Assembly: GCF_947500605.1 (NCBI RefSeq)
Contig: NZ_CANMSJ010000002.1
Coordinates: 62,001 to 126,000 of the forward strand
Length of the DNA: 64,000 nucleotides
Direction: 5' to 3'
DNA from: an uncultured Lacinutrix sp.
GTDB lineage: Bacteria; Bacteroidota; Bacteroidia; Flavobacteriales; Flavobacteriaceae
Positions 39,815 through 46,132 of the stretch are shown here, piece after piece. The position numbers were made by a program, and so were the translations under genes. Below the pieces are notes generated by a model. The model worked only from the letters and a program-made list of their open reading frames with translations, was not told the DNA's origin and did no database searches. Position 1 is the first letter of the stretch, and every line of letters starts with the position of its first letter.

Positions 39815-42388
39815 ATGAAAAACCACTTACTCATTCTCTGTTTTCTTTGCTTCGGAAGTGTGTTTTCGCAAACCTTAGAAAATAGAATCTATGAGGCTAC
39901 AGACGCTTTTAATCTTACTAAATCTACTGAAGCATTAACTACATTAAACAATAGTATTACATCTTTTGAAGCACAATTGTCTACAACAGACGATTACTTG
40001 GCATTTGTAAACCTACTCCTAAATAAAGCACATTACTTAAAAGCGAATAACAATAATACAAAAGCGATTAATAGCTACGAAAAAGCGTTTCTGCTTTATA
40101 ATAATAAAGTTGCATCTGTTTATAAATACAATATTGTCGATTATTGTTTAATTCCATTAGGTGTGCTTTATAACGAAATTGGAGATCATACAGCTGCCGA
40201 AAACATTATAAAAACCTACATCTCATTAGCCGAAAAAAACAAAAACAATACACAACGTGTTGCAGGAGCTATAAATTTATCGCGTTTGTACCAAACCATT
40301 GGAAGGCATCAATTAGCTATTGATATTGCAAATTATGGCCTCAATATAAAACAAGCTAGTACGCTGCAAAAAAACAAGTTAAAACTTATAAAATCGAGAA
40401 GTGAAGCAAGGCTAAATAAAAAAGCAAAATTCATAAATAACGGTGACATTGTGCTTAACTTTAAAACACAATCTATAGAAGCTTTAGAATTGGCTTACGA
40501 AATAGCTATTCAAAAAAAAGATTATGTATTAGCTTTAAAAATATTTAAAAACTTAAAAGGGCTCAAAACGAATGTACTGTCATCAGCAAATAGTTTGTCT
40601 AAAATTTATATTGAAGAAGCACAACTCTACTTACTACTTAAGCAACCCGAGGACACTAAAAAAAGTTTGAAATCTGCTTTAAAATTATTGATTCCTAATT
40701 ATAGTTCTAAGGCAATGCCTTTAGAAACTGACTTATATCCAGAGAATGCTTTTATTGGGATTTTCGATTTATTTGCTGAAATACAAACCAATCCTAAAAA
40801 AGCAATTGAGTATTACAATTTAAGTTTTTATGTAAGTGATTTGCTCACTGAAAACATTACATCTCAAGAAGGGAAACTTATAGCACTAAACGAAAAACGC
40901 AAGCGAAGCGAAGAAAGTTTAAACCTATTATATTATCTACAAAATAACAGTGATGACACTAAATACACATTAGAAGCATTACAACTCTGCGAACGCTATA
41001 AAGCTTCGGTTTTAAAAGAAACTATTAGTAAAAAAAACTTATTAAAGGAACATCCAAAAGATTCACTTTTAATAACACAACAAAAGCTTTTAAATAATCA
41101 AGGACAGATTATTAATAAACTAACAAGGGCTCCTTTTACTAATTTTACTGAAGACCAAAAACTAGAACTTAGAGAACAATTATCTTCAATAAATATTGAA
41201 TTAAAAGACTTAAAAAGCATCATTAATAAAAAGTACACTACTAAGTCAAAAGCCTCTTTAGATATATTAAAACTTAATACTAAATTAATAAAAGACCAAT
41301 CTACATTGGTAAATTACTTTTATGGTAAAAATGCGCTTTATCAAATTATTGTTTCAGATAAAGCAACAGCTTTTAATAAGATTCTTTTAAATGATGTAAA
41401 TACTAAAGCTATTAAAACCTTTATAAAGTATTTTGATAATCCTTCTGCTATAAACAACAATATCTCTAAATATACTGCAGATGCGCATTCACTTTACAAA
41501 CTATTAAAATTAAATGAAGTAAAAGACAAAAAGAACCTCATTATTATTCCAGATGGCTTTTTAAATTTCATTCCTTTTGATGCCCTTTTAACTACAAAAA
41601 CTGAAAGTAAGACTTTCGGAAACATGCCGTTTTTTGTAAAATTTCATACAGCAGTTTTTAACTCTAACATTTCATTATATATAAAGGACAATTCTACTAA
41701 AGTAAAACATAGTGTTTTAGGTGTATTTCCTGTTTTCAAAAATACTTCTCAAGAATTAATTTACTCAATAGACGAAGCCAAAAATATTAAAAAAAAAATA
41801 GAGAGTACATTATTAATGCGTGATCAAGCCACTAAAAGTAACTTTCTAAAACAAGCCAACGAATACTCTATTCTTCATATATCCACACATGGAACAAGTG
41901 GTGATTTTTTTGAGCCTGCACAAATAGCTTTTATAGACCAACCAATATCTACTACCGAGCTATATGGGCTAAATTTAAATCCAGAATTGGTAGTTTTAAG
42001 CGCTTGCGAAACAGGTGTTGGCGAAATAAAACGTGGAGAAGGCGTTTTAAGTATTGCAAGAGGTTTCCAATATGCTGGAGCAAAAAGAATATTGTATTCG
42101 CTTTGGCAAATTAGTGATTTATCGACATCGCAAATAATGACTTCCTTTTACAAAAAATTGTACAATAGTAAATCTATAAGTTATGCGAATCAACAATCGA
42201 AGTTAGATTACATCAATAATGAAGATATAAAAAACTTAAAAAAATCACCATATTATTGGAGCGCCTTTACACTTTACGGAAGTTTTGATAAAGTTAATGA
42301 AACTAATAATTTATGGCTAATTATTGGACTGTCACTTGTAATTATAGTACTTTTACTGTGGTTATTTAAACGGAAAAATGGAAAATAA
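39815..42388 (+). CDS. TPR-CHAT caspase-like protease, membrane-anchored
   Basis: 857 residues. A signal peptide (MKNHLLILCFLCFGSVFSQ) is followed by TPR-like helical repeats (about 30-400), a coiled segment, then a CHAT domain (about 500-820) in which the catalytic pair is intact: H692 in LHISTHGTSG and C731 in VVLSACETGVGE. GFQYAGAKRILYSLWQISD is a further family signature. The end is one TM helix (WLIIGLSLVIIVLLLWLF) with a basic KRKNGK tail, so the protease domain should face the periplasm with its tail in the cytoplasm. CHAT proteins are clan CD cysteine proteases related to caspases and separase. The gene overlaps the next one by 11 bp. Confidence 0.9.
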   Translation: MKNHLLILCFLCFGSVFSQTLENRIYEATDAFNLTKSTEALTTLNNSITSFEAQLSTTDDYLAFVNLLLNKAHYLKANNNNTKAINSYEKAFLLYNNKVASVYKYNIVDYCLIPLGVLYNEIGDHTAAENIIKTYISLAEKNKNNTQRVAGAINLSRLYQTIGRHQLAIDIANYGLNIKQASTLQKNKLKLIKSRSEARLNKKAKFINNGDIVLNFKTQSIEALELAYEIAIQKKDYVLALKIFKNLKGLKTNVLSSANSLSKIYIEEAQLYLLLKQPEDTKKSLKSALKLLIPNYSSKAMPLETDLYPENAFIGIFDLFAEIQTNPKKAIEYYNLSFYVSDLLTENITSQEGKLIALNEKRKRSEESLNLLYYLQNNSDDTKYTLEALQLCERYKASVLKETISKKNLLKEHPKDSLLITQQKLLNNQGQIINKLTRAPFTNFTEDQKLELREQLSSINIELKDLKSIINKKYTTKSKASLDILKLNTKLIKDQSTLVNYFYGKNALYQIIVSDKATAFNKILLNDVNTKAIKTFIKYFDNPSAINNNISKYTADAHSLYKLLKLNEVKDKKNLIIIPDGFLNFIPFDALLTTKTESKTFGNMPFFVKFHTAVFNSNISLYIKDNSTKVKHSVLGVFPVFKNTSQELIYSIDEAKNIKKKIESTLLMRDQATKSNFLKQANEYSILHISTHGTSGDFFEPAQIAFIDQPISTTELYGLNLNPELVVLSACETGVGEIKRGEGVLSIARGFQYAGAKRILYSLWQISDLSTSQIMTSFYKKLYNSKSISYANQQSKLDYINNEDIKNLKKSPYYWSAFTLYGSFDKVNETNNLWLIIGLSLVIIVLLLWLFKRKNGK

Positions 42389-42824
42389 GCTCTGGGATCA
42401 TTTACTTCAAGAAGGATACAAAAAAATAAAACTAAGACTCACACAAACTAATCATTTTGAAGTAAGAGCTAGTATTAATGGTGTAAAAGGACTTTTTATT
42501 TTAGACACAGGAGCATCTAATAGTTGTATTGGTTTTGAAGATGTCGATTTTTTTAACCTAAAAGCCAAAGCTTCAAACATAAAAGCTGCAGGAGCAGGAG
42601 CAACAGATATGCTAACTCAAACAGCATCTAAAAACACTATTAAAATTGGTAGTTGGAAAAACTTAAACCTTACCTTAGTCCTATTCGATTTAACACATGT
42701 AAATACAGCCTTAACAATGCATAATGCAAAACCTGTAAATGGTATTATTGGTGCTGATGTATTAAAAAAAGGAAAAGCAATTATAGATTATAACAAGAAA
42801 TACCTTTACTTAAAATCGCTATAG
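42378..42824 (+). CDS. Retropepsin-like aspartic protease
   Basis: 148 residues, no signal peptide. LFILDTGASNSCIG carries the catalytic Asp (D43, DTGAS), and NGIIGADVLKKGKAIIDY is the hydrophobic-Gly segment near the C-terminus of the fold. A single lobe implies an active homodimer, as in retroviral proteases and the bacterial gag-asp/Perp/TIGR02281 groups. The start overlaps the CHAT gene by 11 bp, so translation is probably coupled. Two protease genes of different classes, coupled like this, suggest a proteolytic relay or shared substrate (inference). Confidence 0.88.
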   Translation: MENKLWDHLLQEGYKKIKLRLTQTNHFEVRASINGVKGLFILDTGASNSCIGFEDVDFFNLKAKASNIKAAGAGATDMLTQTASKNTIKIGSWKNLNLTLVLFDLTHVNTALTMHNAKPVNGIIGADVLKKGKAIIDYNKKYLYLKSL

Positions 42825-42883
42825 TGCAATAATTTTATTACATTTATTAAGCTATGCCTTTCACATAAAAACTCCCTTAAAAT

Positions 42884-43516
42884 ATGAGTACCTCCATTGT
42901 TATTGCAGACGACCATCCATTAATGCTTCGCGGCTTAAGTGATTTTTTATCCTCTAAAGGATACAACATTTTAGGAAAAGCAGAAGATGGACAGGCGGCA
43001 TACAATCTCATTATTAAACACAAACCAGATATTGCTGTTCTAGACATAAGAATGCCTTATTTAACAGGCTTAGATGTTGCCGAACAATGTCAAAAATACG
43101 AGCTAGACACGAAAGTAATTTTAATTACTTTCGATAATGAAGAGGCTCTTTTCGATAAAGCGAGAGCATTTAATGTATATGGTTATATATTAAAAGAATT
43201 TGCTATTGAAGAAATTGAAATATGTATTGGTCATGTTGAAAAAAACGAAAAGTATTTTAGTGAAGAAATAGCCTCTTATTTAAACTCTAAAATAAAATAC
43301 TCTAATGCACACATTAAAGATTTACTAACCAAAACAGAATTGAAAGTTGTTAAGCTGCTATCGAAAAACAAATCTAATCAAGAAATTTCCGATACGCTAC
43401 AGAGTTCTATAAGAACAATAGAAAAACACAGAAGCAATATTGTAAAGAAATTAAAACTTCAAAAGTCTCATAATGCACTTATGCTTTGGGCTAATTTGAA
43501 TAAAGATTTATTCTAG
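42884..43516 (+). CDS. NarL/LuxR-type response regulator
   Basis: 210 residues. The receiver domain has the acidic pair D9-D10, phospho-acceptor D54 (VLDIRMP), T82 and K104, all intact. The C-terminal HTH (LLTKTELKVVKLLSKNKSNQEISDTLQSSIRTIEKHRSNI-type GerE fold, about 145-205) is complete. No histidine kinase is encoded in the window, so the partner is elsewhere. It is the last gene of the plus-strand PKD-CHAT-retropepsin run. The four palindromes that follow within 1.1 kb are good candidates for its binding sites. Confidence 0.93.
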   Translation: MSTSIVIADDHPLMLRGLSDFLSSKGYNILGKAEDGQAAYNLIIKHKPDIAVLDIRMPYLTGLDVAEQCQKYELDTKVILITFDNEEALFDKARAFNVYGYILKEFAIEEIEICIGHVEKNEKYFSEEIASYLNSKIKYSNAHIKDLLTKTELKVVKLLSKNKSNQEISDTLQSSIRTIEKHRSNIVKKLKLQKSHNALMLWANLNKDLF

Positions 43517-43655
43517 TTTTATTTCTTAAAATTAGATTTTTAGCGTTTTGAGATAATAATAAAATGCTTTTTAAAATTACTTTTTTTACACAAAAAACCC
43601 AACTAACCAACAATAACAAAGCTCACGAAGGATTATTAGCTAAATTTTAAATCCG

Positions 43656-43683
43656 AAAAAATACGTAGTTCTACGTATTTTTT
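43656..43683. promoter_or_regulatory. Array unit A: operator-like palindrome
   Basis: Perfect 13-bp arms (43656-43668 and 43671-43683) around TT; core TACGTAG-TT-CTACGTA. The centre is 31.5 bp before TATATTTA (43701-43708). It could also act as a terminator for the response regulator gene because of the flanking A/T tracts. Confidence 0.7.
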
Positions 43684-43713
43684 TTACCGTTTATTCGAAG
43701 TATATTTATAATG

Positions 43714-43782
43714 CTATTAATCAATGACTATAAGAGAAACCAAAGCTCTACATTATAACTAATGTAGAGCTTCTCTTTTTTT
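43714..43782 (+). ncRNA. Array unit A: predicted ~69-nt small RNA
   Basis: Predicted to start about 6 bases after TATATTTA (43701-43708). It begins with the conserved CTATTAATCAAT, has an AAG-rich linker and ends in a perfect stem, AAGCTCTACATTA (43743-43755), loop TAAC, TAATGTAGAGCTT (43760-43772), then CTC and a T run. No -33 element is visible. Ends are predictions. Confidence 0.6.
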
Positions 43783-43989
43783 AGCTGGTTGTTTTTTGAC
43801 TAAAACTAATCAATATCTTATCTTATTTCAATCCTTTCTTTTTTTCTGAAACAAGTCAATAATTAATAAAACTAGCGTTTTTAAATTAAAGAATAAATTA
43901 CAGTGTAACTTCAAAAAACATAAGAAATAACGCTAACCAGTATATAAAAAAGGGGTCTACAGTGTTTTACACATTTAATTAAATCTCAT

Positions 43990-44015
43990 AAAAATACGTA
44001 GTTCTACGTATTTTT
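43990..44015. promoter_or_regulatory. Array unit B: operator-like palindrome
   Basis: 12-bp arms (43990-44001 and 44004-44015) around TT, with the same TACGTAG/CTACGTA core. The centre is 31.5 bp before TATCTTTA (44034-44041), exactly as in unit A. Confidence 0.7.
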
Positions 44016-44046
44016 TAAATCAAATATTCACATTATCTTTATAATG

Positions 44047-44116
44047 CTATTAATCAATTACTTTAAGGGTAATTTAAGCTCTACATTACAACCTAATGTA
44101 GAGCTTTTCTTTTTTT
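44047..44116 (+). ncRNA. Array unit B: predicted ~70-nt small RNA
   Basis: Follows TATCTTTA (44034-44041). Shares CTATTAATCAAT with unit A, has a TTTAAGGG linker and ends in AAGCTCTACATTA (44076-44088) paired with TAATGTAGAGCTT (44094-44106), then a T-rich tract. The stem sequence is identical to A but the loop differs (CAACC). Confidence 0.6.
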
Positions 44117-44241
44117 AGTAAATAAACATTAGTGGTATCCTATATTACTTCAATTGGTTATTCTCTATAAAACGAGTTGTAAAGCTATTGATCTTAAGTT
44201 TTTTTACTTAACAATAAAACCCGGTAAATATTAAAACTAAA

Positions 44242-44265
44242 AAAACACGTAGTTATACGTGTTTT
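44242..44265. promoter_or_regulatory. Array unit C: diverged operator-like palindrome
   Basis: AAAACACGTA (44242-44251) and TACGTGTTTT (44256-44265). Two symmetrical substitutions relative to A/B (TACGTA to CACGTA and TACGTG) keep the outer pairing, while the inner G-C pair is lost. The centre is 29.5 bp before TATCTTTA (44283-44290), 2 bp shorter than the others. Confidence 0.6.
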
Positions 44266-44295
44266 AAATAGGTTATTGAAACTATCTTTATAATG

Positions 44296-44365
44296 CTATT
44301 AATCATCTATCATTAAGGAAAAACCAAAGCTCTACATTATTACTTAATTTAGAGCTTCTCTTTTT
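44296..44365 (+). ncRNA. Array unit C: predicted ~70-nt small RNA
   Basis: Follows TATCTTTA (44283-44290). Shares CTATTAATCA with A and B, has an ATTAAGGAAAAACC linker and a terminator stem AAGCTCTACATTA (44327-44339) with TAATTTAGAGCTT (44345-44357), one mismatch, then TCTCTTTTT. Confidence 0.55.
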
Positions 44366-44584
44366 AAACACTCTTAGTTTGTTAATAGTTACTTTCTACC
44401 AAGCTATTACATTTTCTATCTATTCTTTACTATTAATTTTAAAAAACAAAATTGAAATATATTGAAAACTAGCGTTTTTAAGTCTAATTAAAAAAGTAGA
44501 AATCAAAGTAAAAACCAAACACAAAACAAGCAAACAAGTAGTAAAACATAACAGTTCGAGCGTTTATTTTCTTTTTAAAAACTT

Positions 44585-44616
44585 AAAAAAAATACGTAGT
44601 TCTACGTATTTTTTTT
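44585..44616. promoter_or_regulatory. Array unit D: operator-like palindrome
   Basis: 15-bp arms (44585-44599 and 44602-44616) around TT, core identical to A and B. The centre is 31.5 bp before TATCTTTA (44632-44639). Confidence 0.7.
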
Positions 44617-44644
44617 AACGTTAATACAAGCTATCTTTATAAAG

Positions 44645-44714
44645 CTATTAATTGATTTTTAAGGGAAGAAATTAATTAAAAAAAGCTCTGTACTGTAAAA
44701 GGTACAGAGTTTTT
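44645..44714 (+). ncRNA. Array unit D: diverged ~70-nt small RNA
   Basis: Follows TATCTTTA (44632-44639). The 5' end keeps CTATTAAT and a TTTAAGGGAAG linker, but the terminator stem has a new sequence: CTCTGTAC (44686-44693), loop of 8, GTACAGAG (44702-44709), then TTTTT. The stem can extend outward through TTAATT/AATTAA. A changed sequence with kept stem and position argues for selection on structure. Confidence 0.55.
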
Positions 44715-44741
44715 AATTAATCCAAAAACAACCTCAAACCT

Positions 44742-44846
44742 ATGGAAGAATTAGATGACACAAAAAACAACAAGCTAATTTTTGGAATTATTACTATTGC
44801 AATAATTCTAATTTGCTTTAACATTATTACTGTATTCGTGCATTAA
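44742..44846 (+). CDS. 34-aa single-TM small protein
   Basis: ATG at 44742, TAA at 44844-44846. MEELDDTKNNKLIFG is a charged N-terminus, followed by one hydrophobic helix (IITIAIILICFNIITVFV, about residues 16-33). It is framed by the unit D terminator 27 bp upstream and a strong terminator downstream. It could be expressed by readthrough of unit D or from an unseen promoter. No homologue known to me; the clean composition (acidic head, one TM) favours a real gene. Confidence 0.5.
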   Translation: MEELDDTKNNKLIFGIITIAIILICFNIITVFVH

Positions 44847-44860
44847 CACACTAAACTCTT

Positions 44861-44901
44861 AAACACAAAAAGCTCCTCTATTAGAGGAGCTTTTTGTGTT
44901 T
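44861..44901. terminator. Strong bidirectional terminator (small protein / odhB)
   Basis: 20-bp perfect arms, 44861-44880 and 44882-44901 (AAACACAAAAAGCTCCTCTA and its complement). It lies between the small protein gene and the convergent odhB, with A/T tracts inside the arms. Confidence 0.9.
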
Positions 44902-44917
44902 ATAAACTATTTATATA

Positions 44918-46132
44918 TTAAAGCTCTAAAGCTTTCTTAATATCATTGTTCATTAATAACTCTACTGGGTTTTCTAGGGCTTCTTTAACAGCAACTAAGA
45001 AACCAACACTTTCTTTACCATCGATAATTCTATGGTCGTAAGATAAAGCAACATACATCATAGGATGAATAACAACTTGTCCATCAACCGCAATTGGTCT
45101 TTCTATAATGTTATGCATTCCTAAAATACCACTTTGTGGTGGGTTAATAATTGGCGTAGATAACATACTACCAAAAACACCTCCATTAGTAATAGTAAAT
45201 GTTCCTCCTGTCATTTCATCTACAGTAATCTGTCCATCTCTTGCTCTAAGTGCTAAACGTTTTACTTCAGATTCTACACCTCTAAATGTTAAGCTTTCTG
45301 CATTTCTAATTACCGGAACCATTAAACCTTTTGGTCCAGAAACTGCAATACTAATATCTACAAAATCGAAAGTTTTCATTTCCTTACCGTCAATCATAGA
45401 ATTAACCGCTGGATACATTTGTAATGCACGAACTACTGCTAAAGAGAAGAAAGACATAAATCCTAAACCAACACCATGCTTTGCTTTAAACGTTTCCTTA
45501 TATTCTTTTCTAAGTGCAAAAATTGGAGACATATCTACTTCGTTAAAAGTAGTTAACATTGCTGTTGTGTTTTTAGCTTCAACTAAACGTTCTGCTACTT
45601 TACGACGTAGCATAGACATTTTAGAATTTGAAGAGCTACGGTTTCCACCTGTTGGCGTTCCCATAGAAGGCACTGCATTTACAGCATCGTCTTTAGTTAC
45701 ACGACCATCTTTTCCTGATCCAGAAATAGTACTTGCATCCATACCTTTTTCTGCTAAAATCTTTTTTGCTGCAGGACTTGCTGTACCTGTTGCATATGTT
45801 TTAGCTTCTGTAGCTTTTGGAGTTTCTACTGCTGCTTTTGGTGCTTCTGCTTTAGTTTCTACTTTTGGTGCATCAGAAGATCCTTCTGGTTTTGCAGCAC
45901 TTGTATCTATTAAACAAACAATTGCTCCAACTGCCACAGCATCACCTTCTTCAGCTTTTAGCGTTATTGTTCCGCTAGCTTCTGCAGGTAGCTCTAAAGT
46001 AGCTTTATCACTATCTACTTCTGCGATAGCTTGATCTTTTTCTACATAATCACCATCTTGAACTAACCATTCTGCTATTTCAACTTCTGTAATAGATTCG
46101 CCTGGCGAAGGTACTTTCATTTCTAAAATCAT
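44918..46132 (-). CDS. odhB: Dihydrolipoyllysine succinyltransferase (E2 of 2-oxoglutarate dehydrogenase)
   Basis: 404 residues. One lipoyl domain (about 1-80, lipoyl Lys in [12 protein letters not shown]), an Ala/Pro/Lys-rich linker, an E3-binding domain ([32 protein letters not shown]) and the catalytic core with [17 protein letters not shown]. Transfers succinyl from the E1 to CoA in the TCA cycle. It follows odhA, with a small secreted-protein gene in between. Confidence 0.96.

Follow-up and report, generated by a model that had tools for sequence, protein, structure and literature searches.

The window, by which we mean the whole stretch of 64,000 nucleotides, encodes a NarL/LuxR-type response regulator (hereafter RR), and directly 3' of its gene lie four units composed of an operator, a promoter, a small RNA and a terminator (Table 1). 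According to Pfam matches, the genes leading up to these units encode, in order, a PKD/DUF7849 protein, a TPR-CHAT protein, a retropepsin-like protease and RR itself.

Table 1. Genes and putative regulatory features at the RR locus, with positions in the window
Feature	Position	Strand	Basis or remark
TPR-CHAT protein, inconstant upstream neighbour	39815..42388	+	Pfam CHAT 8.8e-47; 40/80 loci
Single-domain retropepsin-like aspartyl protease gene 5' of RR	42378..42824	+	Pfam Asp_protease_2 8.5e-11; 80/80 loci
RR leader segment CTCCCTTAAAAT, candidate sRNA-binding site adjoining ATG	42872..42883	+	complementary to unit D (and B) loop region
NarL/LuxR-type response regulator RR (receiver and GerE domains), presumed array activator	42884..43516	+	Pfam Response_reg 1.4e-23, GerE 4.8e-11
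Unit A operator TACGTAGTTCTACGTA	43662..43677	+	string match
Unit A -7-like element TATATTTA	43701..43708	+	string match
Unit A sRNA, GCTATTAAT to end of T-run	43713..43782	+	terminator hairpin 43743-43772; predicted fold
Unit B operator	43995..44010	+	string match
Unit B -7-like element TATCTTTA	44034..44041	+	string match
Unit B sRNA with 5' hairpin	44046..44117	+	terminator 44076-44106; predicted fold
Unit C operator CACGTAGTTATACGTG, compensated arms	44246..44261	+	string match
Unit C -7-like element TATCTTTA	44283..44290	+	string match
Unit C sRNA, weakest predicted fold of the four	44295..44365	+	predicted fold
Unit D operator	44593..44608	+	string match
Unit D -7-like element TATCTTTA	44632..44639	+	string match
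Unit D sRNA, second type, long 5' hairpin, AAGGGA loop	44644..44716	+	terminator 44681-44714; predicted fold

An earlier note on this DNA had described four tandem small-RNA units with a shared layout, and string searches and folding place all four at the positions and with the geometry claimed. The promoter-start string TATNTTTATAANGCTATTAAT occurs in the window without mismatch at 43701, 44034, 44283 and 44632; with up to two mismatches it is found five times (0.01 expected in shuffles), the fifth match being a two-mismatch stray at 1641 on the minus strand. The operator string is likewise perfect at 43658, 43991, 44242 and 44589, and with up to three mismatches gives eight matches on both strands of the window against 0.05 expected. 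Distances from the palindrome centre to the -7-like element, recomputed from the coordinates, are 31.5, 31.5, 29.5 and 31.5 bp, as had been reported. The operator of unit C, said to keep its symmetry through paired changes, does so, and the terminator of unit D, said to differ in sequence, is of a second type, a near-identical terminator being common to units A, B and C. The predicted folds of transcripts A, B, C and D have z values of -5.5, -5.3, -3.0 and -7.9; a 5' hairpin of its own, longer than 2 bp, is predicted only for units B and D. Units A to C are divergent, the GGG loop being absent from A and C, and unit D retains the AAGGGA loop.

This arrangement is shared by the relatives of RR. 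A scan of named genomes returned 238 stretches encoding a relative, and the best 80 were taken; they bear flavobacterial names throughout (Lacinutrix, Bizionia, Olleya, Algibacter, Flavivirga, Tamlana and others), except L077, which is labelled Bacteroidia bacterium. A unit was defined as GCTATTAAT with at most two mismatches and a TACG...CGTA palindrome 48-54 bp upstream, located within 2.6 kb downstream of RR. By this rule, at least one unit lies downstream of the RR ortholog in all of the 80 best-matching loci as well as in the window, which together hold 201 units (1 to 7 per locus), and the offset from the operator to GCTATTAAT is 51 bp in 182 of them. The rule undercounts, Olleya sediminilitoris (L069) having eight operators, and it may also admit some background: the 201 units fall in 205 kb downstream of RR and the identical rule finds 50 matches in 2.97 Mb elsewhere or antisense, so that about 3-4 of the 201 units are possibly of this kind. 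The regulator of Lacinutrix algicola (L054) is 99% identical to that of the window, in line with a Lacinutrix-like source genome. The PKD gene is present in 39 of the 80 loci and the CHAT gene in 40, partly because contig ends cut some loci. A search of other genomes for the combined pattern, which the earlier note had put forward as a check, retrieved it from 18 of the 37 genomes of the family in a 60-genome panel, the window's own genome included; the strict composite pattern had no match in the 23 panel genomes outside the family, and its reversed control had none. Furthermore, RR matches of at least 46% identity occur in 14 of 38 genomes searched, with a unit downstream in 14 of 14. The locus is a tandem array with fixed operator-start geometry and terminators, and it is so in relatives too.

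Two loci depart from this scheme. At L249 (genome G003), the protease gene is followed directly by one unit with its operator kept; RR is absent between the two and elsewhere in the genome at 1e-40, this genome being 89% complete, and the retention of an operator unit without an RR match suggests that another protein may read the operator. At L185 (G009), the RR match is partial (43-208) and contains one internal stop, yet units are kept.

The promoters of the family are uniform. In the 182 fixed-spacing units, conservation is strong or complete in the A-tract and the T-tract on either side of the palindrome, and TA at -12/-11 and TT at -8/-7 are found in 182 of 182 with a free spacer. The unit rule selected the palindrome ends and GCTATTAAT, and several motif counts were made on sequences selected with part of the motif concerned; the flanking tracts, the -12/-11 TA and the -8/-7 TT were unselected. 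The lack of a -33 motif, which the earlier note had remarked on, extends to the family comparison, where no such box is seen. A terminator was recognised in 192 of the 201 units, with its stem ending at a median of 64 nt, and the counts of structure given below leave out the 9 units without one. Two alignments were used, one of 68 of 136 distinct promoters (every second one) and one of the 97 of 145 units left by length and identity filters together with window units A and B. In these last 99 units, all 12 consensus pairs of the terminator show a two-sided change in at least one unit. The fixed operator-start distance and this covariation support the proposal, already made in the earlier note, that the units are probably multicopy sRNAs under activator-dependent promoters.

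The predicted structures point to two exposed segments. The first 9 nt, at the GCUAUUAAU 5' end, are predicted to be unpaired across the family with a mean probability of 0.74-0.91, and the segment that follows forms at least 5 pairs in 170 of 192 units, with a mean z of -1.46. A type 1 loop (UUAGGGAGAA / UUCUUAGGGAGAA) occurs in 72 of 192 units and [AG]GG[AG] in the loop region of 143; a type 2 loop, UUCUUU(U)GAGAGAGAAUU, was found in 17 units by a strict pattern. The alignment consensus shows one GGG block, and conservation of the transcript extends past +9 within sRNA types.

When the 5' part of the first unit containing GGG is scanned against the start regions of seven genes of the neighbourhood, RR stands out, its mean z being -1.70 (s.e. 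0.16, 78 loci) versus -0.37 to +0.46 for the six other genes; L105, with a mis-set start, was left out of the leader tests. The longest complement of the RR leader to sRNA nucleotides 9-34 has a mean length of 7.66 nt across 80 loci; the corresponding mean is 6.38 (sd 0.12) with shuffled leaders and 7.15 (sd 0.12) after exchange of sRNAs among loci, and 0 of 500 such swaps come as high as 7.66. The excess over shuffles is +1.28 for RR and ranges from -0.58 (PKD) to +0.51 (CHAT) for six control genes, CHAT itself being about 3 sd above its shuffles (6.68 versus 6.17, sd 0.16). Indeed, TAATAGC, the complement of GCUAUUA in the sRNA 5' end, is present in 44 of 80 RR leaders, in nearly every case 24-32 nt upstream of the ATG, versus 2 of 80 protease leaders and 0 of 256 others (2/336 in all), and CTCCC lies between -30 and +6 in 19 of 80 RR leaders versus 0 of 336 controls. 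The mean energy of the duplex between sRNA and RR leader is -13.0, compared with -9.2 (sd 0.27) for shuffled leaders; examples are AAATTCTCTCTC in Algibacter luteus (12 nt) and TCTCCCTAA in Seonamhaeicola (9 nt). In distant arrays, TCCCT precedes the RR start in 4 of 5 and is absent in L260. Taken individually, the duplexes of the window units with the RR leader are non-significant (P 0.11 for D, 0.25 for B, 0.62 for C and 0.79 for A), and with one locus for each of 29 groups, made from record titles with unassigned records each forming their own group, the comparison of matched with swapped sRNAs is of marginal significance: over 100 draws the median P is 0.0475, and half of the draws fall below 0.05. 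The RR's own mRNA appears from these complements to be the best-supported target of the sRNAs, and the resulting loop would be a negative feedback on the activator.

Other candidate targets were sought with the pattern ATTAATAGC-N(6-22)-TCTCC; the nine genomes searched, Flavivirga and relatives with a similar RR identity, are close kin of one clade and yield 50 matches versus 4 for the pattern reversed. Apart from the RR leader, it is the start region of a bactofilin gene (Pfam Bactofilin 3.8e-24, in the one genome tested) that recurs: string matching finds ATTAATAGC-N-TTCTCC in its leader in 8 of 9 genomes, five of them read in sequence, with TCTCC in the first codons; most other matches read fall within coding sequence. 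The order of the two complements, in RR and bactofilin leaders alike, precludes one continuous duplex with a single sRNA. On this complementarity, bactofilin is a second candidate target, which the sRNAs may repress. Another gene has ATTAATAGC before its ATG in two genomes and is also a candidate; its product has no Pfam match in the 80 residues scanned. From a search for ATTAATAGC-N(0-14)-ATG in 10 genomes, 40 of the matches listed, from three genomes and with AT-rich spacers, were picked by hand, and 3 of the 40 passed a filter that placed the site outside an open frame of 90 codons: two are one orthologous gene in two genomes and the third is a 60-codon ORF. At 7 other picked sites the ATG opens an ORF inside a longer open frame, and none of the loci fetched in one round for such matches passed a similar filter. 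The promoter of the PKD gene was also considered as an operator target and rejected, its 39 upstream regions containing 0 operators by rule, with a start-like element in some.

The 5' end of the sRNAs recurs under other operators. An exact search of 10 genomes for the complement of the type 1 loop matched the array in all of them and one further place in 7, where an sRNA-like unit has an identical 5' domain but a different body, terminator and palindrome; an eighth genome has a one-base variant of the loop, AAGGA (L286). By hand count, this second palindrome, AATACTCAATTTGAGTATT, is centred 43 bp upstream, compared with 43.5 for the array operator. In Lacinutrix-group genomes, the gene preceding the AATACTCAATTTGAGTATT palindrome and a unit starting GCTATTAATCAATTCTA encodes a GerE domain (1.3e-15) and has a PAS-like match that falls short of the Pfam cut-off. 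Similarly, an sRNA-like unit lies 84-94 nt downstream of 3 of 7 genes for RR paralogs, with 38-40% identity for those that have such a unit, the genes without one being three of G011 and one of G001, and no sRNA complement was seen in the leaders of the three unit-bearing paralogs. These second-operator and paralog units indicate that conservation of the 5' domain does not depend on the array, and their placement suggests that the PAS-LuxR-like protein and the paralogous RRs drive their neighbouring units. The same 5' end is found in sense orientation on mRNAs, including those of csgA (17 leaders), the PAS-LuxR gene and others, and a model (R1) of 68 array units from other genomes finds matches at E <=0.5 in 34 of 38 genomes.

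Among these mRNAs, csgA links the array to curli. CsgF is encoded in 13 of the 60 panel genomes, 11 of them of the same genus, and in all 11 the csgA-type genes start GCTATTAATCAATNTATATTTAACATG. An operator-like palindrome (at most two mismatches) lies 163-199 bp upstream of 13 of the 17 csgA-type starts, not at 43.5; the start element is absent at the two curli loci outside the genus. In the window's own genome, where csgE, csgF and a curlin-repeat gene are near site C12:66043, model R1 ranks csgA at the top with 25.2 bits, above the four array units, among the 150 of 7402 first-look candidates that were scored. The four sRNAs of the window pair with the csgA leader no better than with shuffles. 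The array palindrome farther upstream and the transcript 5' end suggest that the module probably co-controls surface fibres, and co-control of curli and sRNAs by RR in Lacinutrix-group genomes is plausible by analogy. In E. coli, the curli genes are controlled by CsgD, a LuxR/FixJ-type protein of the LuxR family. If RR controls csgA, both systems would be regulons in which curli genes answer to a regulator of the LuxR type; the present one differs by its sRNA array and by the 5' end that its transcripts have in common.

Beside these results, we observed that the curli operon of the window's own genome (L007 1519-4929 on C12, with curlin repeats, csgE and csgF) lies directly downstream of a type III glutamine synthetase gene, and that five genomes of the same genus have two or three csgA-type starts each.

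Taken together, we consider it fairly probable that the locus encodes a family of multicopy base-pairing sRNAs activated by RR, with feedback on RR, other targets, co-control of csgA and dosage by duplication. RR, probably phosphorylated, would bind TACGTA-N4-TACGTA palindromes centred about 43.5 bp upstream of GCTATTAAT (TACGTAgaacTACGTA being the palindrome that RR would bind, unlike AATACTCAATTTGAGTATT) and recruit RNA polymerase to a promoter in which the -7-like element stands alone. Each unit would be transcribed into an sRNA of about 70 nt with an unpaired GCUAUUAAU 5' end and an intrinsic terminator, the latter supported by covariation, and often with a small hairpin after the 5' end whose loop would expose GGG or GAGAGA. 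Two seeds, the 5' end and the purine-rich loop, may then pair with translation-initiation regions; the sRNAs would lower RR translation and thereby restrain their own activator. Tandem duplication may raise dosage and let copies diverge, and in the Lacinutrix group the palindrome farther upstream and the shared 5' end would bring csgA under the module.

The hairpins could alternatively form a protein sponge like CsrB/RsmY, in which (A)GGGA loops titrate an RNA-binding protein under a GacA-like logic, with the array serving dosage. The frequency of the type 1 loop and of [AG]GG[AG] fits such a role, as do the AAGGA variant of the dispersed copy, the identical 5' domain under a different operator, and the better folding of the region after the 5' end than of shuffles; against it, CsrA (PF02599) is found in 0 of 38 genomes by a search that detects the positive controls E. 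coli, B. subtilis and T. maritima, type 2 loops (GAGAGA) are devoid of GGA, and the complements in RR leaders are left unexplained. We deem this reading unlikely, bearing in mind that a protein other than CsrA could be bound. That the palindrome is instead a bidirectional terminator or some other boundary, with constitutive RNAs downstream, seems very improbable to us. While AAAAATACGTAG-TT-CTACGTATTTTT could fold into a hairpin that carries a T-run and the dispersed copies are intergenic with mostly non-orthologous neighbours in the genomes compared, the site in distant arrays, TACGTAACGTTACGTATTG, is without the long T-run and 192 of 201 units have a terminator of their own; the constant 51 bp from operator to start in 182 of 201 units and the occurrence of a different palindrome centred at -43 in the second sRNA locus disfavour it.

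It is also conceivable that GCTATTAAT is a mere discriminator or initial transcribed sequence rather than a shared seed and that the complements in RR leaders have another origin. The presence of the same sense 5' end on mRNAs such as those of csgA and the PAS-LuxR gene, and the wide occurrence of R1 matches, speak in its favour, but TAATAGC is nearly confined to RR leaders among the seven genes and recurs in bactofilin leaders, and the transcript is conserved past +9 within sRNA types; we consider this explanation unlikely. A wider reading of the base-pairing sRNAs is that the nine nucleotides GCUAUUAAU are the hub of a flavobacterial post-transcriptional network in which separate LuxR-type regulators, namely RR, the PAS-LuxR-like protein with its own palindrome at the equivalent position and the paralogous RRs, drive seed-bearing sRNAs next to their genes. 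Some mRNAs, csgA among them, begin with the sRNA seed and could themselves act as regulatory RNAs or as decoys on shared targets. We advance this wider reading tentatively, as possible and on balance doubtful.

The earlier note had not recognised the family, and at gathering scores Rfam yields no match to the window or to 11 related loci. A relaxed search of 43500-44950 gave 45 matches at E <=5, all below gathering, and 28 fall on a hairpin around 44840-44950; Flavo-1 (RF01705), singled out in that note, is not among them, and it is also absent from L091 10600-11000, where there is a single match at E <=1. Among the matches listed in open-access main texts, there is no earlier description of an RR with a tandem sRNA array.

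In its proposed working, the module resembles the Qrr system of Vibrio, where several near-identical sRNAs (Qrr1-5) are switched on by the response regulator LuxO, a luxO feedback loop is also part of the circuit, and the genes are sigma-54 dependent, dispersed and Hfq-dependent. Negative feedback in this quorum-sensing circuit has been described for the LuxR-Qrr loop of V. harveyi (PMC2680268). The likeness lies in several sRNAs presumably driven by one response regulator, here adjacent in 80 of 80 loci; the array differs by its NarL/LuxR-type RR, its -7-like element alone, its tandem order and the lack of an Rfam match, and the TA, TT and free spacer of its promoters, present in 182 of 182, do not conform to the sigma-54 consensus. 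GacA is a LuxR-family response regulator with a palindrome upstream of its sRNAs, which bear GGA loops. It drives several sRNAs that bind RsmA-type proteins, RsmX/Y/Z (PMC8871633); the array differs in that CsrA is found in none of 38 genomes and that its sRNAs have complementarity to the RR leader. The FopS/GibS family of Bacteroides comprises 14 paralogs, which fall into clusters of about 65 and 70 nt and have a conserved 5' part and terminator and action near start codons, is scattered over intergenic, antisense and 3'-UTR positions, and involves sigma-ABfr promoters and RbpB (PMC11697453). It shares with the array phylum, size and multicopy nature, and differs from it in being scattered, an adjacent regulator not being described in the sections of the source considered here (PMC11697453). 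Compared by description, the array resembles Qrr in its proposed working and FopS in size and copy number, this resemblance being distinct from membership in either family. A transcriptome study of F. psychrophilum names flavobacterial Rfp RNAs, and the terms LuxR and palindrome are absent from its main text (PMC9723704).

The base-pairing sRNA circuits of Bacteroidota in the literature searched come from Bacteroides and Flavobacterium. If the proposed model is true, it would describe a conserved regulator-sRNA feedback module of several flavobacterial genera, whose proposed transcription factor, operator, seed and targets were all read from sequence. It would furthermore provide a handle on the control of curli fibres and perhaps of bactofilin, and a seed that sRNAs have in common with the 5' ends of mRNAs under the same control would represent a new design principle.

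Several minor observations concern dispersed copies of these elements. An orphan transcript resembling an sRNA and about 100 nt long (L141, minus strand, about 1400-1520; C13:24655 in the window's own genome) shares the 5' end and has no operator at -51. Another unit starting with GCTATTAAT is found at L250, L251, L253, L258, L298 and L310, mostly downstream of one gene family; by eye, TCTCCC in the L250 and L253 unit is complementary to the type 1 loop, and the unit might act as a sponge. Exact copies of the palindrome lie between genes at L005 5142, L006 5078 and L008 5153, near SLATT, HAD-like (by eye) and PIN-domain genes. A fixed regulon of the exact palindrome was considered and rejected, since outside the array and curli the neighbours are mostly non-orthologous among 38 loci; a few pairs of sites do share a neighbour, for example L011 and L028.

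Downstream of unit D, a 34-codon ORF at 44742-44846 (+), consisting mainly of one hydrophobic stretch, matched no Pfam family and is present at 97% in L054, 1 of the 80 loci; by eye, L249 has a resembling ORF start after its single unit. Between this small ORF and an odhB-like gene lies a long hairpin, a probable terminator, at 44860-44903.
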